DNA of 5,324 nt from Candidatus Bathyarchaeota archaeon (lineage in GTDB: Archaea; Thermoproteota; Bathyarchaeia; Bathyarchaeales; UBA233): assembly GCA_007050895.1 (NCBI GenBank), contig SMYP01000012.1, forward strand, positions 1-5,324, given 5' to 3'. The translations under genes and the position numbers were made by a program. The notes below the pieces were generated by a model that saw nothing but the letters and a program-made list of their open reading frames with translations, ran no database searches and had not been told where the DNA came from. Below are positions 2 to 4,855 of this stretch, in pieces (position 1 is the first letter of the stretch; the number at the start of each line of letters is the position of its first letter).

Positions 2-676
2 AAAAACAAAACGGGAACCGAAGAGAACCCTTTACGATATTACGAGATTGATTTCCTACACGCGATAAAGGATAATGGAGCTCTTGACGAGGCCAAACTG
101 GCCCACACTGTGATCTTTCTCAGAGACACCGTAGAAGAGAAGTTGCGGGGATACAGCCGACGTGACACAGTGGATTACTACAGGAAAATAGTGACGAAAG
201 CGTGGTCGCAAGTGGAACAAGCCGGTACAGCTAACTTGGGGTCCAAAGCGTACGATGAGCAACTGCTGTGGCTTATGCTTGACCCGGATTACCGATCTCG
301 TACAGAAATTACGTTTCAGAATCGCGTTTTTGAACCGAGCCCTCTCTGGTTCTGGTACTGGTACGGCCACAATCATTATAATCCGCATTCTGCGAACAAA
401 CCGACCATTGACCCGCCAGCCAAACCCGCTCAACCACCAAAGATTCCTGGTGCTGAATTCGCAAACAACATAGCAACCGCGGTGGAAAAAACTTCAAGCA
501 ACATCGTTATGGACGTCGAGAAGTTCGCCAACGCCATAATTCCAATGCAACGGCAGGAAGCGTCGCATGCCCCTGTCCACCGGGAAGACAGCTGCGTATG
601 CGCCTGCGCTGCGTGTGCTTGCGCTTGTGCTTGTGTTTCATGTGCTTGTGCGTGTGCAGGAGGAGGTGTCGGATAA
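2..676 (+). CDS. C-terminal part of a protein with a Cys-Ala-rich tail; candidate substrate of the adjacent radical SAM enzyme
   Basis: The reading frame is open from the left edge, so the true start lies outside the window; 224 codons are visible, ending in TAA. The GTG at 110 is not needed as a start, because coherent sequence continues upstream of it. In order along the visible residues: a charged helical region (about 1-105), an aromatic/His-rich patch rich in W, F, Y and H (115-127), a Pro-rich linker (134-149), an amphipathic helical stretch (about 150-182), then a tail from residue 198 with ten cysteines alternating mainly with alanine and ending GGGVG. No membrane segment is visible in this part. 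From memory, archaeal membrane proteins of a DUF2207-like or TIGR04222-like type can end in similar low-complexity Cys/Gly tails, but I cannot confirm membership. The gene for a PqqD-radical SAM-SPASM enzyme starts two bases after the stop, which suggests the tail is post-translationally modified. Coding status is secure; function is inferred. Confidence 0.85.
   Translation, partial: KNKTGTEENPLRYYEIDFLHAIKDNGALDEAKLAHTVIFLRDTVEEKLRGYSRRDTVDYYRKIVTKAWSQVEQAGTANLGSKAYDEQLLWLMLDPDYRSRTEITFQNRVFEPSPLWFWYWYGHNHYNPHSANKPTIDPPAKPAQPPKIPGAEFANNIATAVEKTSSNIVMDVEKFANAIIPMQRQEASHAPVHREDSCVCACAACACACACVSCACACAGGGVG
593..673 (+). repeat. Cys-Ala low-complexity coding repeat (modified-tail candidate)
   Basis: This is the tail-coding end of the first gene, built from repeated TGY-GCN codon pairs. 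It encodes cysteines in groups of three, four and three (CxCxC, CxCxCxC, CxCxC) separated by the dipeptides Ala-Ala and Val-Ser, then Ala, three Gly, Val and Gly. Cys codons are mixed (TGC in the 5' part, TGT in the 3' part) and Ala codons vary (GCC, GCT, GCG, GCA). The repeat is therefore not a pure nucleotide microsatellite and appears to be kept at the protein level. Confidence 0.9.
661..668 (+). promoter_or_regulatory. Shine-Dalgarno site of the radical SAM gene, inside the upstream coding region
   Basis: AGGAGGTG sits 10 bases before the ATG at 679 and matches the archaeal SD core GGAGGTG. It decides the start of the radical SAM gene in favour of 679 over the in-frame ATG at 598. The same bases encode part of the Gly-Gly-Gly-Val end of the upstream protein, so the two genes are probably translationally coupled. 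Confidence 0.8.
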
Positions 677-678
677 AA

Positions 679-2025
679 ATGAGTTTTCTACGGAGAGCTT
701 TGCGACCGCCTAGAGTTCCTCAAGGTCGCTACACTTACCGCGGGGAGGGTGAGTTTGCGGGCATGTCGCTTCAGTTACGAATTCAACCCGATGGGCGTGG
801 GGTCATGTTGATAAACGCTAACACTGTACTTCACTTGAACGAGACTGCGACCGCTTACACTTACTATTTCATGACAGGTATGCCTGCAAGCGAAATTTTA
901 ACTAAGATTCGTCGTATGTACCGCGTTAACCCAAACAAAGCAAAGGCAGACTACGAAAGAATAGTATATACCATCAGCACTTTGGCACGAACTGAAAAGA
1001 TTTGCCCAGTTTCGTTTCTTGAAGTGGAAAAAGAAGAACCTTTTAGCTACCAGTATTCTGCGCCTTTACGTATGGATTTAGCGCTTACCTTTGAGTGTTC
1101 AAACAATTGCATTCACTGCTACGCTGGTGGACCTCACGAAACTCCCGAACTAAACACCAATCAGTGGAAAGAAGTGATAGACCGCCTCAGCCAAATCGGC
1201 ATTTTCATTTTAACCTTCACAGGTGGCGAGCCGACGCTACGTGAAGACTTGCATATACTATTACAGCATGCCCAGAACAGAGGTATGGTTACGGGTTTGA
1301 TAACTAACGGTAGAAAGATGAAAGACGAGGAATACGTGCGAACCCTTGAGAAAGCAGGTTTAGATTTTGCGCAGGTGACCCTCGAGTCACATAAGCCTGA
1401 AATCCATGATTTGATGACTGCAACTGAGGGAAGCTGGAAGGAAACGGTTGTTGGAATAAAGAACGCAGTGCGCTCGCAGATTTACGTTACGACTAACACT
1501 ACATTGAGCAAATATAATGCTCCAGAATTCCTAAAAACAGTTGACTACATAAAGGAGCTCGGCGTTGCTGCATTTGGCTGCAACAGTCTTATATATTCTG
1601 GCAAGGCAAACGCGATAAGTGAAGAATTCGCTTTGTCTGTTGAAGCGCTAGAAAAGCTTCTGAAGAAAATAAATGACAAAGCCCAGCAGCTTAACCTAAA
1701 GTTTCTATGGTATACACCAACGCAGTATTGTCGTTTTAACCCAGTTCAGCTAGGTTTAGGCGTCAAATCTTGTACAGCAGCGATGATAAACATGTGCATT
1801 GGACCATCGGGGGAGGTTTACCCCTGCCAAAGCTACTTTGAAAGTCTTGGAAACATACTCGTTGATAGGTGGGAAAAAATATGGAATACCCCACTCGCCC
1901 TGAAGATTCGAAACAGAGAATACGTTGAGCCCAAATGCAAAGATTGTCCTCAACTCCAAGTATGTGGCGGAGGATGCCCTTTAGAATTGATAGACAAACA
2001 ATATATCTGTGGTCAATCGGAATAA
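679..2025 (+). CDS. PqqD-like / radical SAM / SPASM peptide-modifying enzyme
   Basis: A predicted 448-residue iron-sulfur enzyme that would use S-adenosylmethionine to start radical chemistry on a peptide. Residues about 25-103 resemble PqqD/RRE peptide-binding domains, including the hallmark LNETA at 53-57. The radical SAM core follows, with CxxxCxxC at C140/C144/C147 for the catalytic 4Fe-4S cluster and GGEP at 182-185. The C-terminal SPASM region is complete: C365-x12-G-x4-C383, then CX2CX5CX3C at C420/C423/C429/C433 and a last C444, with an extra C373. That pattern predicts two auxiliary clusters, as in sactipeptide, ranthipeptide and quinohemoprotein maturases. The start at 679 is chosen for its SD and because an in-frame ATG at 598 would only add an implausible Cys/Arg-rich shadow of the upstream repeat. 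The gene lies two bases after the Cys-Ala-tailed protein, its most likely substrate. Enzyme class is confident; the bond formed is unknown. Confidence 0.93.
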   Translation: MSFLRRALRPPRVPQGRYTYRGEGEFAGMSLQLRIQPDGRGVMLINANTVLHLNETATAYTYYFMTGMPASEILTKIRRMYRVNPNKAKADYERIVYTISTLARTEKICPVSFLEVEKEEPFSYQYSAPLRMDLALTFECSNNCIHCYAGGPHETPELNTNQWKEVIDRLSQIGIFILTFTGGEPTLREDLHILLQHAQNRGMVTGLITNGRKMKDEEYVRTLEKAGLDFAQVTLESHKPEIHDLMTATEGSWKETVVGIKNAVRSQIYVTTNTTLSKYNAPEFLKTVDYIKELGVAAFGCNSLIYSGKANAISEEFALSVEALEKLLKKINDKAQQLNLKFLWYTPTQYCRFNPVQLGLGVKSCTAAMINMCIGPSGEVYPCQSYFESLGNILVDRWEKIWNTPLALKIRNREYVEPKCKDCPQLQVCGGGCPLELIDKQYICGQSE

Positions 2026-2125: not shown

Positions 2126-3370
2126 TTGCAGACGGCAGAGAGAAGCAAACCTCGGCTAGTGGTATTTGACGTTGAGGGAGTGCTAATCCCAAAAAACCGG
2201 TTCATCTTTGATGTAGGTAAGAGTTTAGGCGTTTCTATGCTGCTGAAAATGCTCCTCATTGGCTTTCTATATGAAGCTGGTCTTGTAACGTTGAAGTGGG
2301 CTCTGAGACGCATTTTTAAAATTATGACTGGAGTTAAAATCGCTAAGATCATCAAGATTTTTAATGAAATTCCTTCAAACCCTCAATTGCTTAGCCTTTT
2401 TGATCAACTCAAAGATAGAAACTTCAAAATAGCGTTGATAAGTTCCGGAATTCCTTCAGTTATCGTTGAGAAATTGGCCAGTACGCTTCACGCAGATTAC
2501 GCCGTTGGCGTTGAGGTTGGTTTGAATGATGAAGCTTTGACTGGTGAAATTTGGGGTGATGCTATAGAAACTAATGGAAAGCGCAAAGTTCTAACGCGAA
2601 TCTTAGCTGCTGCAGGGTTGAATTTGGAAGACTGCGTAGTAGTGGCGGATGACAGGAACAACAGTTGCATTTTTCTCTCTAGGGCGCAGAAAATAGGATA
2701 CAATCCAGACTTTGTGTTACGCGTAAAGGCTGACAACGTTATAACAGGCAGGTTATCCAAGATTTTGCCCCTAATCGACGGAAAACCGCGACAATGGTCG
2801 CTGCCATCTAAGAACGACTTGTTAAGAGAGGGAATTCATGCTTCTGGATTTTTTATTCCAGTTCTTTCCGATTTAGTAGGCGTTTACTCCGTTGCATTGA
2901 TGATTTTCGTAATAAGTGCTGTCTACTCTTTTTCTGAACTATTGCGTATGAACAACACAAATATGCCCGTAATATCGACGATAACTCAGAACGCCGCGTC
3001 ACCGGCAGAACTTTACGAGTTCGCCGCTGCGCCCCTCTATTTTGCCACAGGCATATTGCTAACCTTGCTCATGTTTCCTGCTGTAGTGTCCAGCGCAGCT
3101 ATTGCCGTATTTACTTTGGGAGACAGCACTGCCTCACTATTCGGAGGGCTAATCTCAAAAAAGTCGTTGCCATTAAATAAAAGCAAAACCTTGGAGGGAT
3201 CGCTCATCGGTTTCCTCTTTGCTTTTTTAGCCGGAGCGTTTTTTGTGCCACCAATGCTGGCGTTAATTGCCGCCGCGGTCGCGATGACGATTGAGAGCCT
3301 GCCATTTCCAGTTAACGACAATATTCTAATACCGTTGGGTACAGGATTGGCTTTGTTGGCTATGCTTTAA
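2126..3370 (+). CDS. HAD phosphatase-like domain fused to a dolichol/phytol kinase-like membrane domain
   Basis: 414 residues from a TTG start. Residues about 10-215 form a phosphoserine-phosphatase-like HAD domain: motif I FDVEGVL (D15, with E17 where a second Asp is usual), a hydrophobic helical cap (about 33-75), motif II LISSG (S106/S107), a Lys for motif III (K152 or K154), and motif IV VADDRNN (D175/D176, with N179 where Asp is usual). Residues about 225-414 resemble the COG0170 polyprenol/phytol kinase family: an REGIHASG stretch like the RKxxHxxxG signature (R234, H238, G241), the CTP-kinase-like GDSTASLFG (332-340), KSKTLEGS (352-359), and roughly five to six hydrophobic membrane segments. 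Family members phosphorylate polyprenols or phytol with CTP in the membrane. The fusion suggests one protein handling both addition and removal of phosphate on an isoprenoid or related lipid, but the substrate is unknown. It stands apart from the radical SAM gene by 100 bases. Domain calls are confident; the reaction is inferred. Confidence 0.85.
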   Translation: MQTAERSKPRLVVFDVEGVLIPKNRFIFDVGKSLGVSMLLKMLLIGFLYEAGLVTLKWALRRIFKIMTGVKIAKIIKIFNEIPSNPQLLSLFDQLKDRNFKIALISSGIPSVIVEKLASTLHADYAVGVEVGLNDEALTGEIWGDAIETNGKRKVLTRILAAAGLNLEDCVVVADDRNNSCIFLSRAQKIGYNPDFVLRVKADNVITGRLSKILPLIDGKPRQWSLPSKNDLLREGIHASGFFIPVLSDLVGVYSVALMIFVISAVYSFSELLRMNNTNMPVISTITQNAASPAELYEFAAAPLYFATGILLTLLMFPAVVSSAAIAVFTLGDSTASLFGGLISKKSLPLNKSKTLEGSLIGFLFAFLAGAFFVPPMLALIAAAVAMTIESLPFPVNDNILIPLGTGLALLAML

Positions 3371-3840
3371 ATTTGAAATAACGCTTTTTCATGATTAAGT
3401 ACAGCGTAATTTTTACCTTTTTTAACTATCTTGTGCCCTTCCTGCTCTACCCGCAGTTTTTGAGCTTCTGCGCTATCTGGGTAATTCTCGTTCAATGTGT
3501 CACCTGTCTTCAAGGTGGACTAGTAGGGTGTGATGTCTCTCTCGCCGTTTTTTTCTCGCTTTCCTGCGACCTTTGTTGCGATCCAAACAAGGATGCCTGT
3601 GGTCATGGAGCAGATGATTGTGGCATTATGTTTCTTGGCAAGTGTAGTGCAGATGTTGTTGATTGTGATTAGTTTTCCCTCTGGCACTTTTCTTATTATT
3701 TGATCAACTTCCATTTGGGCAGGTATAACTACGGTGCCTATCCCCCAGCGTTTGCTTAGTTTGTCTTTGTTTTGTTCAAATTTGGGAAGCCCTTTGATGT
3801 CGTTTAGCTTTTCAATCTATGTTGTCTTCTTTCTTGGCAT
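3367..3840 (-). pseudogene. Ada/ATL-like (MGMT-type DNA-binding domain) protein gene with two in-frame TAG codons
   Basis: Reading leftward from ATG at 3840 gives 157 codons to TAA at 3369-3367, interrupted only by TAG at codon 8 (3819-3817) and codon 107 (3522-3520). The protein matches what I know of the Atl1/MGMT-like winged-helix family: an EKL..IKGLPK N-terminus, KRWGIGTVVIP, VPEGKLITINNI, LAKKHNATIICSMTTGI, DITPY, then TLKTGDTLNENYP, EAQKLRVEQEGHKI and KGKNYAVLN. Relatives have a Trp in the KSWREKL-like start and in TPYWR, exactly where the two TAGs fall. Other expected features are eroded: the PGG before EAQ is DSA, and CP is CS. The PCHR alkyl-acceptor motif is absent, so an intact version would be an ATL-like lesion-binding protein rather than a methyltransferase. 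No frameshift is present, so decay is recent or the TAGs are read through. A 64-codon internal frame from 3714 would lack both ends. Family assignment is from memory. Confidence 0.8.
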
Positions 3841-3910: not shown

Positions 3911-4180
3911 TCATTGATATTTGTTTTGTGTATTAATCAAATTGACTTTCTGTTGATGCGACAGTTTTTTTATCTCTCTTTCCCGTTTCATCGCTTTCGT
4001 TCGCGAATCAAAAAGTTCAACGTAAGCAATCTGTTTGGGCTTATGAGTTATAGTATATCGAGCACCTTTTCCGCTTTCGTGAAGTCTTGTCCGCTCTTCT
4101 AAGTTCTTGGTATAACCAGTGTAAAAACTTCCATCTCTGCAAAGAAGAATATACACGTAAAAGGGCAATGGTGCATTCAC
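3911..4180 (-). CDS. GIY-YIG domain nuclease, UPF0213/YhbQ type
   Basis: An 89-residue single-domain protein, the usual size for this family of small predicted endonucleases related to the UvrC N-terminal domain. Visible motifs are FYVYILLC (the GIY strand, Y10), DGSFYTGYT (the YIG strand, Y20-T-G), R30 in LEERTRLH, GKGARYT (37-43), and KREREIKKLS with E67 as the likely metal-binding Glu, followed by LI...N86. All expected catalytic positions are present, so it should be an active metal-dependent DNA nuclease; substrates of this family are poorly defined. The start is GTG at 4180, the first start codon after the in-frame TGA of the upstream gene; GGGAG overlaps the start region, so ribosome binding may depend on coupling. 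It lies nine bases downstream of the PD-(D/E)XK-like gene, so the two form an operon. Stop is TGA. Confidence 0.88.
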   Translation of the reverse strand: MNAPLPFYVYILLCRDGSFYTGYTKNLEERTRLHESGKGARYTITHKPKQIAYVELFDSRTKAMKREREIKKLSHQQKVNLINTQNKYQ

Positions 4181-4189
4181 TCCCAGACT

Positions 4190-4855
4190 TCAATAAACCG
4201 AATAATCGGAAAGCATACCTCTATGCAATGCGCGCTTCATGTAGGCTTCTGGATCGATTTCTCTGACTTTTGCTTGATCAACGTCGATTATATAGATTTC
4301 TTGTATGCGCGCGTTTTGGATTTCTTCTTTCGTAACCGGTGGATTTTGATAGTACGCGTCACAGAGTTTCTTGATCGCCTCTATTTCTTCAGCTGTTCTT
4401 TTTCTGGGTGACTTAGCTAATGCACGTGGAAAAGGCAGTATGTAATGAGGTGGCATGCCTAACGCGAATTTTCCGGCAAAGCTGTTGTACCTTATTATTT
4501 TGCTGGCCAACCGGGCTGACGTATAAGTTAAGGGAGATAACGCATACTCGGGAGGAATAAAGCCTGTTTCTATTTCAACTATAAGGTTTCCATAGCCTTT
4601 CATAGAGTACAAATCGCAAGTTAATAGCGTGCTGACCTGATATTCAAGTTGCACCTCGTATCCTTTCAAGATAAGGTATTTCGCGCAGACAAGTTCCATT
4701 ACGGAATGGTTAATTTTTACAACGTTCTTCGTTTGGAGGTTAACTAGCCAGTCCTTAAGCATGTTTAGCTTGTTTTCAACCTCTTTTTCAACGTCGAGCG
4801 TAAGCCGCGACATTAAAGTGGTTAAATCTTGCTCGAATCTATCTCTACCATTCAT
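4190..4855 (-). CDS. conserved archaeal hypothetical protein with a PD-(D/E)XK-like core
   Basis: 221 residues; I do not recognise a named family, though the sequence has the feel of a conserved archaeal hypothetical. Residues 5-45 are charged and helical, possibly a short coiled coil. Then comes a pattern like restriction-type nuclease folds: NHSVMELVCAKYLILKGYEV (helix with E54), CDLYSMKGYG (D81) and LIVEIETGF (E94-x-E96). This gives E...D-x12-E-x-E, with Glu where PD-(D/E)XK nucleases usually have Lys; the following helix (114-123) supplies R115, K119 and R122. Next are a PP-containing segment (100-140), a PRKRTAEEIEAIKKLCDAYY helix (150-169) and IYIIDVD (187-193). No signal peptide or membrane segment is seen, so it is likely cytoplasmic. 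ATG at 4855 directly follows an in-frame TGA and is preceded by a weak SD (GGAAATGA). It is the first gene of an operon with the GIY-YIG nuclease, which favours a nucleic-acid role. Coding is secure; the nuclease assignment is tentative. Confidence 0.85.
   Translation of the reverse strand: MNGRDRFEQDLTTLMSRLTLDVEKEVENKLNMLKDWLVNLQTKNVVKINHSVMELVCAKYLILKGYEVQLEYQVSTLLTCDLYSMKGYGNLIVEIETGFIPPEYALSPLTYTSARLASKIIRYNSFAGKFALGMPPHYILPFPRALAKSPRKRTAEEIEAIKKLCDAYYQNPPVTKEEIQNARIQEIYIIDVDQAKVREIDPEAYMKRALHRGMLSDYSVY

Follow-up and report, generated by a model that had tools for sequence, protein, structure and literature searches.

The radical SAM/SPASM maturases known so far act mostly on small peptides, sulfatase maturation being an exception. 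Among these enzymes, SkfB is a sactipeptide maturase and SuiB makes a C–C link, while the anaerobic sulfatase-maturating enzyme (anSME) modifies a Cys or Ser of a full-size protein, that is, one residue in the active site of a folded enzyme. Here we discuss a gene pair at the start of contig SMYP01000012.1 of a Candidatus Bathyarchaeota archaeon (assembly GCA_007050895.1); "the window" refers to the whole analysed stretch of 5,324 nucleotides, and coordinates are given on its forward (+) strand unless the reverse (−) strand is indicated. The first gene encodes a protein that ends in a Cys-Ala tail (the scaffold) and the second a radical SAM/SPASM enzyme. Together they are probably a dedicated substrate–maturase pair in which the enzyme acts repeatedly on the tail.

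The enzyme shares the CxxxCxxC motif, the SPASM cysteines, and a PqqD-like domain with maturases of the sactipeptide and ranthipeptide type (SkfB and AlbA and, further away, SuiB and PqqE). These systems have a short precursor with a leader and a Cys core, whereas the partner here is a membrane protein of ~540 amino acids (aa). The likeness to anSME lies in the SPASM type of the enzyme and in the fold, as discussed below. Since anSME acts on a full-size protein, it provides a precedent for a protein-sized substrate; however, neither a repetitive tail nor a membrane scaffold is involved there. The radical SAM/SPASM protein of the ACGX system (TIGR04340) matches the enzyme of locus L118, whose clade carries Ala-Cys-His-Ser (ACHS) tails, with E = 6e-30, although the score of 104.6 compares with a cut-off of 400 and the comparison is one of enzymes, not of precursors. 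The name ACGX presumably implies Ala-Cys-Gly-X repeats, akin to the ACHS repeats. A dipeptide repeat with Cys as the presumed modification site is described for Cluster 59, where a precursor peptide of Asp-Cys repeats is encoded next to a radical SAM enzyme (PMC9062424, section on this cluster). In contrast to the pair discussed here, that section concerns a peptide with up to six Asp-Cys repeats and a recombinase in the cluster, and it mentions no membrane scaffold. Radical SAM-modified ribosomally synthesized and post-translationally modified peptides (RiPPs) are mentioned for archaea in general terms in the accessible text of PMC12144867.

The nearest published idea that we found concerns TIGR04222 membrane proteins, whose Cys-rich ends have been proposed as MNIO (MbnB_TglH_ChrH) substrates (PMC12452194, in its accessible part). 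As far as that part goes, both cases combine a membrane protein that has a low-complexity, Cys-rich tail with an adjoining gene for a candidate maturase, and the scaffolds are distantly related: L118 and L072 score 39.1 and 24.0 bits with the TIGR04222 profile, the cut-off of 43 being reached by no scaffold scanned. In contrast, the candidate maturase here is a radical SAM/SPASM enzyme, the tail grammar is strict and near-invariant, and the tail is predicted to be cytosolic, while the accessible part of PMC12452194 predicts the TIGR04222–MNIO tails to be periplasmic. MNIO (PF05114) occurs in 2/19 genomes of the set, on contigs other than that of the pair, and was rejected as the maturase since it was not found in the other 17. 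The literature searched, which covered few subscription journals, contained no description of this pair and no radical SAM counterpart to the TIGR04222–MNIO proposal. A related layout is known from DUF2207 proteins (PF09972/PF20990), which, in the accessible text of PMC10457818, have a large extracellular N-terminal part and an intracellular C-terminal part with a Gly/Ser-rich stretch.

In the window, the 3′ part of the scaffold gene (2..676, +) encodes 224 visible residues in an open reading frame (ORF) that is open at the 5′ edge, and the N-terminus is thus missing. Judged by the relatives, ~320 N-terminal residues with the signal peptide, the extracellular domain, and the membrane helix would lie before the window. 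An earlier note, made from the letters of this DNA, had pointed to ten Cys in the last 27 residues and to a radical SAM enzyme two bases later, and both observations are confirmed. All ten Cys of the visible 224 residues fall within the tail (593..673, +; 27 residues, CVCACAACACACACVSCACACAGGGVG) and none elsewhere, with a hypergeometric P = 6e-10 for all ten lying within the last 31 residues. The stop codon TAA (674-676) is followed by two bases and then by the ATG (679) of the enzyme gene (679..2025, +; 448 aa). A longer enzyme ORF starting at 598 was rejected as the start, since the 448-aa relatives do not use it. The Shine–Dalgarno-like GGAGGAGGTG (659..668, +), read directly, lies inside the Gly-Gly-Gly-Val codons of the tail, 10 bases before the enzyme ATG. 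The end of the tail therefore doubles as a ribosome-binding-like site, and its position suggests translational coupling of scaffold and enzyme. The closest named relatives of the window genes are Candidatus Bathyarchaeota metagenome-assembled genomes (MAGs).

A scan of GTDB species genomes gave 80 loci from 97 relatives. The archaeal loci come from Bathyarchaeia, a Methanomethylicia MAG, Thermoprotei/Thermoproteota, Theionarchaea, a MAG labelled Thermococci, and Methanocella, the bacterial ones from Bacillota and Anaerolineaceae. At these loci, which were found through the scaffold, the enzyme lies directly downstream on the same strand in 71/80 (a count that includes some broken or cut copies). 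In 2 it precedes the scaffold on that strand, in 3 it is on the opposite one, and in 4 the stretch contains none. Concerning loci without an adjoining enzyme, the stretch at L023 ends 76 bases past the scaffold, L039 has masked sequence and tail and enzyme occur elsewhere in its genome, and at L077 enzyme and scaffold share a contig but are ~30 kb apart. L066 has no enzyme within 3 kb of the scaffold, its whole genome not having been searched for one.

Co-occurrence, which the earlier note had raised as a check, was counted for scaffold and enzyme in the class of seed genome G002. Of its 201 sampled genomes, 54 have the scaffold and 50 the enzyme, and each of these 50 is also one of the 54. 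Moreover, 50/51 enzymes directly follow the scaffold, with 3-59 bases between the matches. As to the four scaffold-only genomes, one has adjoining enzyme fragments, one a partly masked enzyme, and two have partial scaffolds. In the other samples, named, like the Anaerolineae and Bacillota groups below, after the inferred group of the seed, the enzyme was found in 11/199 genomes of the Bacillota phylum, 50/199 of the Anaerolineae class, 4/147 of the Methanocella phylum, and 7/115 of the Theionarchaea phylum. The Anaerolineae phylum sample gave matches in 14 of 201 genomes, six of them new and one with a degenerate paralogue only (G606). The same note had considered that homologues of the enzyme might instead adjoin precursors without such tails; this was checked, with the contrary outcome that a scaffold with a periodic Cys tail is present in 114/119 non-seed enzyme genomes from the six samples in an enzyme-first search. 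By sample, these are 46/46 in the G002 class (where the tail was deduced from scaffold matches that extend to the final one or two positions of the model, the part that represents the tail), 10/10 in Bacillota, 44/49 in the Anaerolineae class (in 6/44 on a contig different from that of the enzyme), 3/3 and 5/5 in the Methanocella and Theionarchaea phyla, and 6/6 in the Anaerolineae phylum. The 119 do not include G606 or the scaffold-found seeds G001, G002, G004, G005, G013, G014, G015, G016, and G019; some non-seed genomes may also feed the 80 loci, but the sampling was not scaffold-driven.

The tail is far better conserved than the protein that carries it, with a mean majority identity of 0.87 vs 0.45 for the rest across 27 aligned scaffolds. 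A CVSCACACA core is present in 120/120 homologues (the best 120 of 289), a count that is weak by itself since the query contained the tail. The 15-residue core CACACACVSCACACA is identical at 48/77 loci compared and is encoded in 47 DNA versions, in which the Cys, Ala, Val, and Ser codons vary freely. One peptide in 47 DNA spellings implies that the tail is kept as protein and does not reflect repeat slippage at the DNA level. A chance or low-complexity artefact is ruled out by the same spellings, and a frame artefact by relatives that have the tail in frame.

In the window, two-residue spacers (Ala-Ala and Val-Ser) move the Cys period from 2 to 3, and CACA tails in general have a period of mostly 2 with single steps of 3. 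After removal of nine duplicate loci, the tails of 135 enzyme-bearing loci comprise CACA with a Val-Ser spacer (74), CACA with an Ala-Gly spacer (21), two Val-Ser spacers (5), short Bacillota tails (4), and ACHS/CVHD repeats (25), while no tail is seen in 6. Divergent enzymes partner the same scaffold carrying other periodic tails, such as CACACACAGCACACA or the ACHS repeats. In ACHS tails, successive Cys are mostly 4 residues apart, with steps of 5 in places. The Cys-Ala tail put forward in the earlier note holds for the window but not as a general rule; considering the deep ACHS/CVHD clade, the rule is restated as a periodic Cys tail. In the ACHS/CVHD tails (L116-L128, L146-L148, and L168-L174), mostly 13 Cys alternate with His, and owing to these His they hint at metal binding more strongly still than the CACA tail.

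Full-length relatives of the scaffold comprise ~540 aa, in which a signal peptide and an extracellular domain precede a single membrane helix, and the cytosolic domain beyond the helix carries the tail at its end. Both the suspected membrane anchor and the placement of the tail on a large protein are thereby supported. The model of the L002 scaffold shows an extracellular beta domain at residues 31-210, a helix at 224-253, the cytosolic part, and a disordered stretch with the tail. Over 19 residues, the mean number of Lys and Arg is 4.13 after the internal helix vs 1.27 before it, and it is higher after the helix in 63/70 scaffolds. From this charge bias, the tail is predicted to lie on the cytosolic side of the membrane, which is also the expected location of the enzyme. 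Two hydrophobic stretches are present in 51/70 scaffolds and three in 19/70, the third being, in our judgement, a hydrophobic helix of the cytosolic domain.

The window scaffold has no match in Pfam or NCBIfam, TIGR04222 included, and a sequence search against solved structures gave chance-level matches only. The 50 fold matches listed, all with TM-scores <0.4, include the N-terminal beta domains of ribophorin I and M1-aminopeptidase, which we take to indicate a shared beta-sandwich in the predicted model and not a function. The DUF2207 cut-off is reached by none of the 13 CACA-type scaffolds scanned, and only L072 shows PF20990 (20.2 bits vs 33). In contrast, the ACHS-tailed scaffolds of L118 (28.8 bits) and L121 (25.2 bits) pass the PF09972 cut-off of 24.4. 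Moreover, a profile of the scaffold without its tail matches 129/129 tailed scaffolds at E<1e-5, up to 27 of which had been used to build it. These matches place CACA and ACHS scaffolds in one family near DUF2207/TIGR04222. On sequence grounds, the scaffolds appear to be divergent relatives of these membrane proteins, to which that of the window would be linked only via a chain of homology.

The enzyme begins with a PqqD/RRE-like domain (721..990, +; residues 15-104), followed by the CxxxCxxC radical SAM cluster motif (1096..1119, +; residues 140-147 with Cys 140/144/147) and the SPASM cysteines C365, C383, C420, C423, C429, and C433 (1771..1977, +). Among 29 aligned enzymes, all have the three Cys of CxxxCxxC and match both Pfam Radical_SAM and Pfam SPASM (PF13186). 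The six SPASM Cys are likewise present in 29/29, and the seventh, C444, in 20/29; the full set of SPASM cysteines claimed before therefore stands for the window enzyme and not as a universal feature. A peptide-recognition domain of its own had also been assigned to the enzyme. Pfam PqqD is sub-threshold in the window (15.6 bits vs a cut-off of 23.4), but 18/29 aligned enzymes match at E<=0.1 (best 6.7e-6), and the AlphaFold model (mean pLDDT 88.9, pTM 0.89) agrees, with strands and then three helices at residues 16-104 before the barrel and SPASM. The model has no membrane segment. SkfB is the closest solved structure by both sequence and fold; PqqE and SuiB follow by sequence and SuiB by fold, with EpeE and anSME also among the fold matches. 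Among the best 25 of its 73 NCBIfam matches, the window enzyme reaches no cut-off (156.6 bits vs 500 for the best model). Each of the 19 seed genomes has one enzyme at >=560 bits, the next radical SAM protein scoring <=203 bits, while in the wider samples the scores are graded (276-757 bits).

Two enzymes per genome are found in G058 and G883. Those of G883 (L186 and L200) each lie beside their own tail type, CACA and ACHS, which constitutes a natural specificity test. In Anaerolineae, a second related ORF of ~380 aa follows directly after the enzyme or within ~1.5 kb (L071:12654-13775; L137, L138, L139, L140, and L141). It keeps the PqqD-like start and lacks CxxxCxxC in 6/6 checked, with 1-4 Cys in total; from its sequence, it may be a degenerate radical SAM protein and possibly a substrate-binding subunit. 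In G606, such a degenerate protein, again devoid of CxxxCxxC, is the only match, the main enzyme not being found at the threshold applied. In L111-L115, another diverged enzyme paralogue (437-534 aa, 47-106 bits) is encoded either in between the genes of the pair or next to them.

Judged from the pairing and the tail sequences, the tail would with good probability be the substrate of the enzyme. In this model, the scaffold inserts in the membrane with the N-terminal domain outside and the C-terminal domain with the Cys tail in the cytosol, where the enzyme, taken as cytosolic, would recognize it through the PqqD-like domain. The tail would thread into the active site, and the 5′-deoxyadenosyl radical would abstract hydrogen from tail residues, many times along the periodic Cys. 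Given the SPASM clusters and Cys as the dominant tail residue, Cys-to-carbon thioethers are the likeliest outcome. By analogy with the nearest solved relative, SkfB (SuiB also ranking high), the product would tentatively be thioether links from Cys sulfur to tail carbons, a proposal that we rate slightly short of even. Other possible outcomes are epimerization (EpeE being among the fold matches), C–C links, or sulfur insertion. After maturation, the tail would remain part of the scaffold and form a stiff appendage, rich in sulfur, on the inner face of the membrane. Its candidate roles are to bind metal, to sense redox state, or to serve as a stiff stem in the cytosol; that it binds metal we regard as doubtful. 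Taken together, the pair can be read as an old and widespread archaeal and bacterial system that equips a single-pass membrane protein, at its cytosolic end, with a tail that is cross-linked into a polythioether or otherwise remodelled at its Cys. This would be a cell-envelope protein modification, not a secreted peptide, with at least two grammars (Cys-Ala dipeptide and Ala-Cys-His-Ser tetrapeptide) co-inherited with their enzymes. For this composite reading, our judgement is evenly balanced.

Several observations weigh against it. A modification is not visible in sequence. The non-Cys residues of the CACA tails are mostly Ala, and the acceptor residues usual in known sactipeptides are missing from the tail. 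The scaffold model has a low pTM (0.47), with the tail disordered. No Cys tail was seen in 5/49 Anaerolineae enzyme genomes (G419, G420, G571, G542, and G438); in four of them, all but G419, the enzyme lies near a contig end, the scaffold of G438 is visible but cut before the tail, and for G542 only its own short contig was looked at. In L095-L098 (Bacillota sample), the Cys motif is not terminal, with 30-91 residues after it; these scaffolds are short (373-456 aa) and the enzyme is still next door. Tail types do form blocks on the enzyme tree (12 changes vs 58.8 on average after shuffling; tree by FastTree, which gave long-branch warnings, with seven loci that have broken or partial enzymes left out), and enzyme and tail-less scaffold distances correlate with r=0.957 (113 loci, leaving out twelve named loci, scaffolds <=400 aa, and those without a tail label), but shared ancestry would likewise make the trees congruent and cluster the tail types. 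Both are therefore weak and signify consistency, not proof. A partial internal control, in favour of the main reading, comes from six Anaerolineae loci (L118, L119, L120, L124, L125, and L147). There, the Cys-tailed scaffold is the direct neighbour of the enzyme on the same strand, and a scaffold paralogue with a Gly-only tail is encoded on the opposite strand at a distance of 1.8-4 kb; L125 has an ordinary DUF2207 paralogue with a Gly tail, 3.8 kb from the enzyme. Being in the same neighbourhood, these paralogues make a weak negative control.

The tight pairing would also suit a redox partner, and alternating Cys can bind soft metals. The tail might accordingly remain unmodified and, as a metallothionein-like or Fe-S ligand, supply the enzyme with electrons, iron, or sulfur, which would make the scaffold a partner and not a substrate. 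We consider this improbable, since the enzyme has a PqqD-like peptide-binding domain and SPASM as in peptide maturases, and since the tail grammar is strongly clade-dependent, which resembles a change of substrate more than it does a fixed motif for cluster binding. According to the accessible part of PMC9062424, many members of this radical SAM subfamily work on peptide natural products, and the scaffold could be a classical RiPP precursor with an unusually large leader, the tail being cleaved and exported as a peptide. The near-invariance of the tail and the signal peptide and membrane helix of the scaffold speak against this. In addition, neither a protease nor an exporter is conserved beside the pair among the neighbours in the 80 loci, and neighbour clustering of these loci revealed no third gene kept with the pair across clades, which argues against a secreted RiPP that has a dedicated protease and exporter; such a peptide is therefore very improbable. 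Hardly probable at all is that the enzyme acts elsewhere on the scaffold or on another substrate and that the tail merely docks it. Docking tails exist, and the tail is disordered in the model, but ten near-invariant Cys exceed what docking should need, and the scaffolds of L095-L098 seem to lack most of the cytosolic domain (the last 220 residues, judged by eye) and yet keep the Cys motif and the enzyme.

With the tail as the presumed substrate of a dedicated maturase, the substrate would be a full-size membrane protein across Bathyarchaeia, other Thermoproteota, Theionarchaea, Methanocella relatives, Bacillota, and Anaerolineae. The tail is so regular that each of its residue positions amounts to a natural experiment on the specificity of the enzyme. 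Modification of the tail, if it occurs, would extend radical SAM chemistry to membrane proteins in mostly uncultured lineages, and one branch of the widespread, unexplained DUF2207-like proteins would gain a testable function. The pair is small (two genes) and suited to co-expression.

Among the neighbouring genes, the most widespread cluster covers 14/80 loci, all Bathyarchaeia. ABC transporters (10 loci) are the sole neighbour cluster found over distant taxa, with no fixed place. In the window, a gene at 2126-3370 (+) encodes a HAD-type phosphatase domain followed by a membrane domain that, judged by eye, resembles a dolichol-kinase-like protein; it is found downstream of the pair in 14/80 loci, all Bathyarchaeia. 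The gene at 3520-3840 (−) is conserved at 12 related loci, L002 having it as a 170-aa ORF; by eye, it seems to be in pieces in the window, where a 64-aa part is open. A small GIY-YIG domain protein is encoded at 3911-4180 (−) and an unnamed protein of 221 aa at 4190-4855 (−), apparent relatives of which, again judged by eye, occur near the pair in 13/80 loci.

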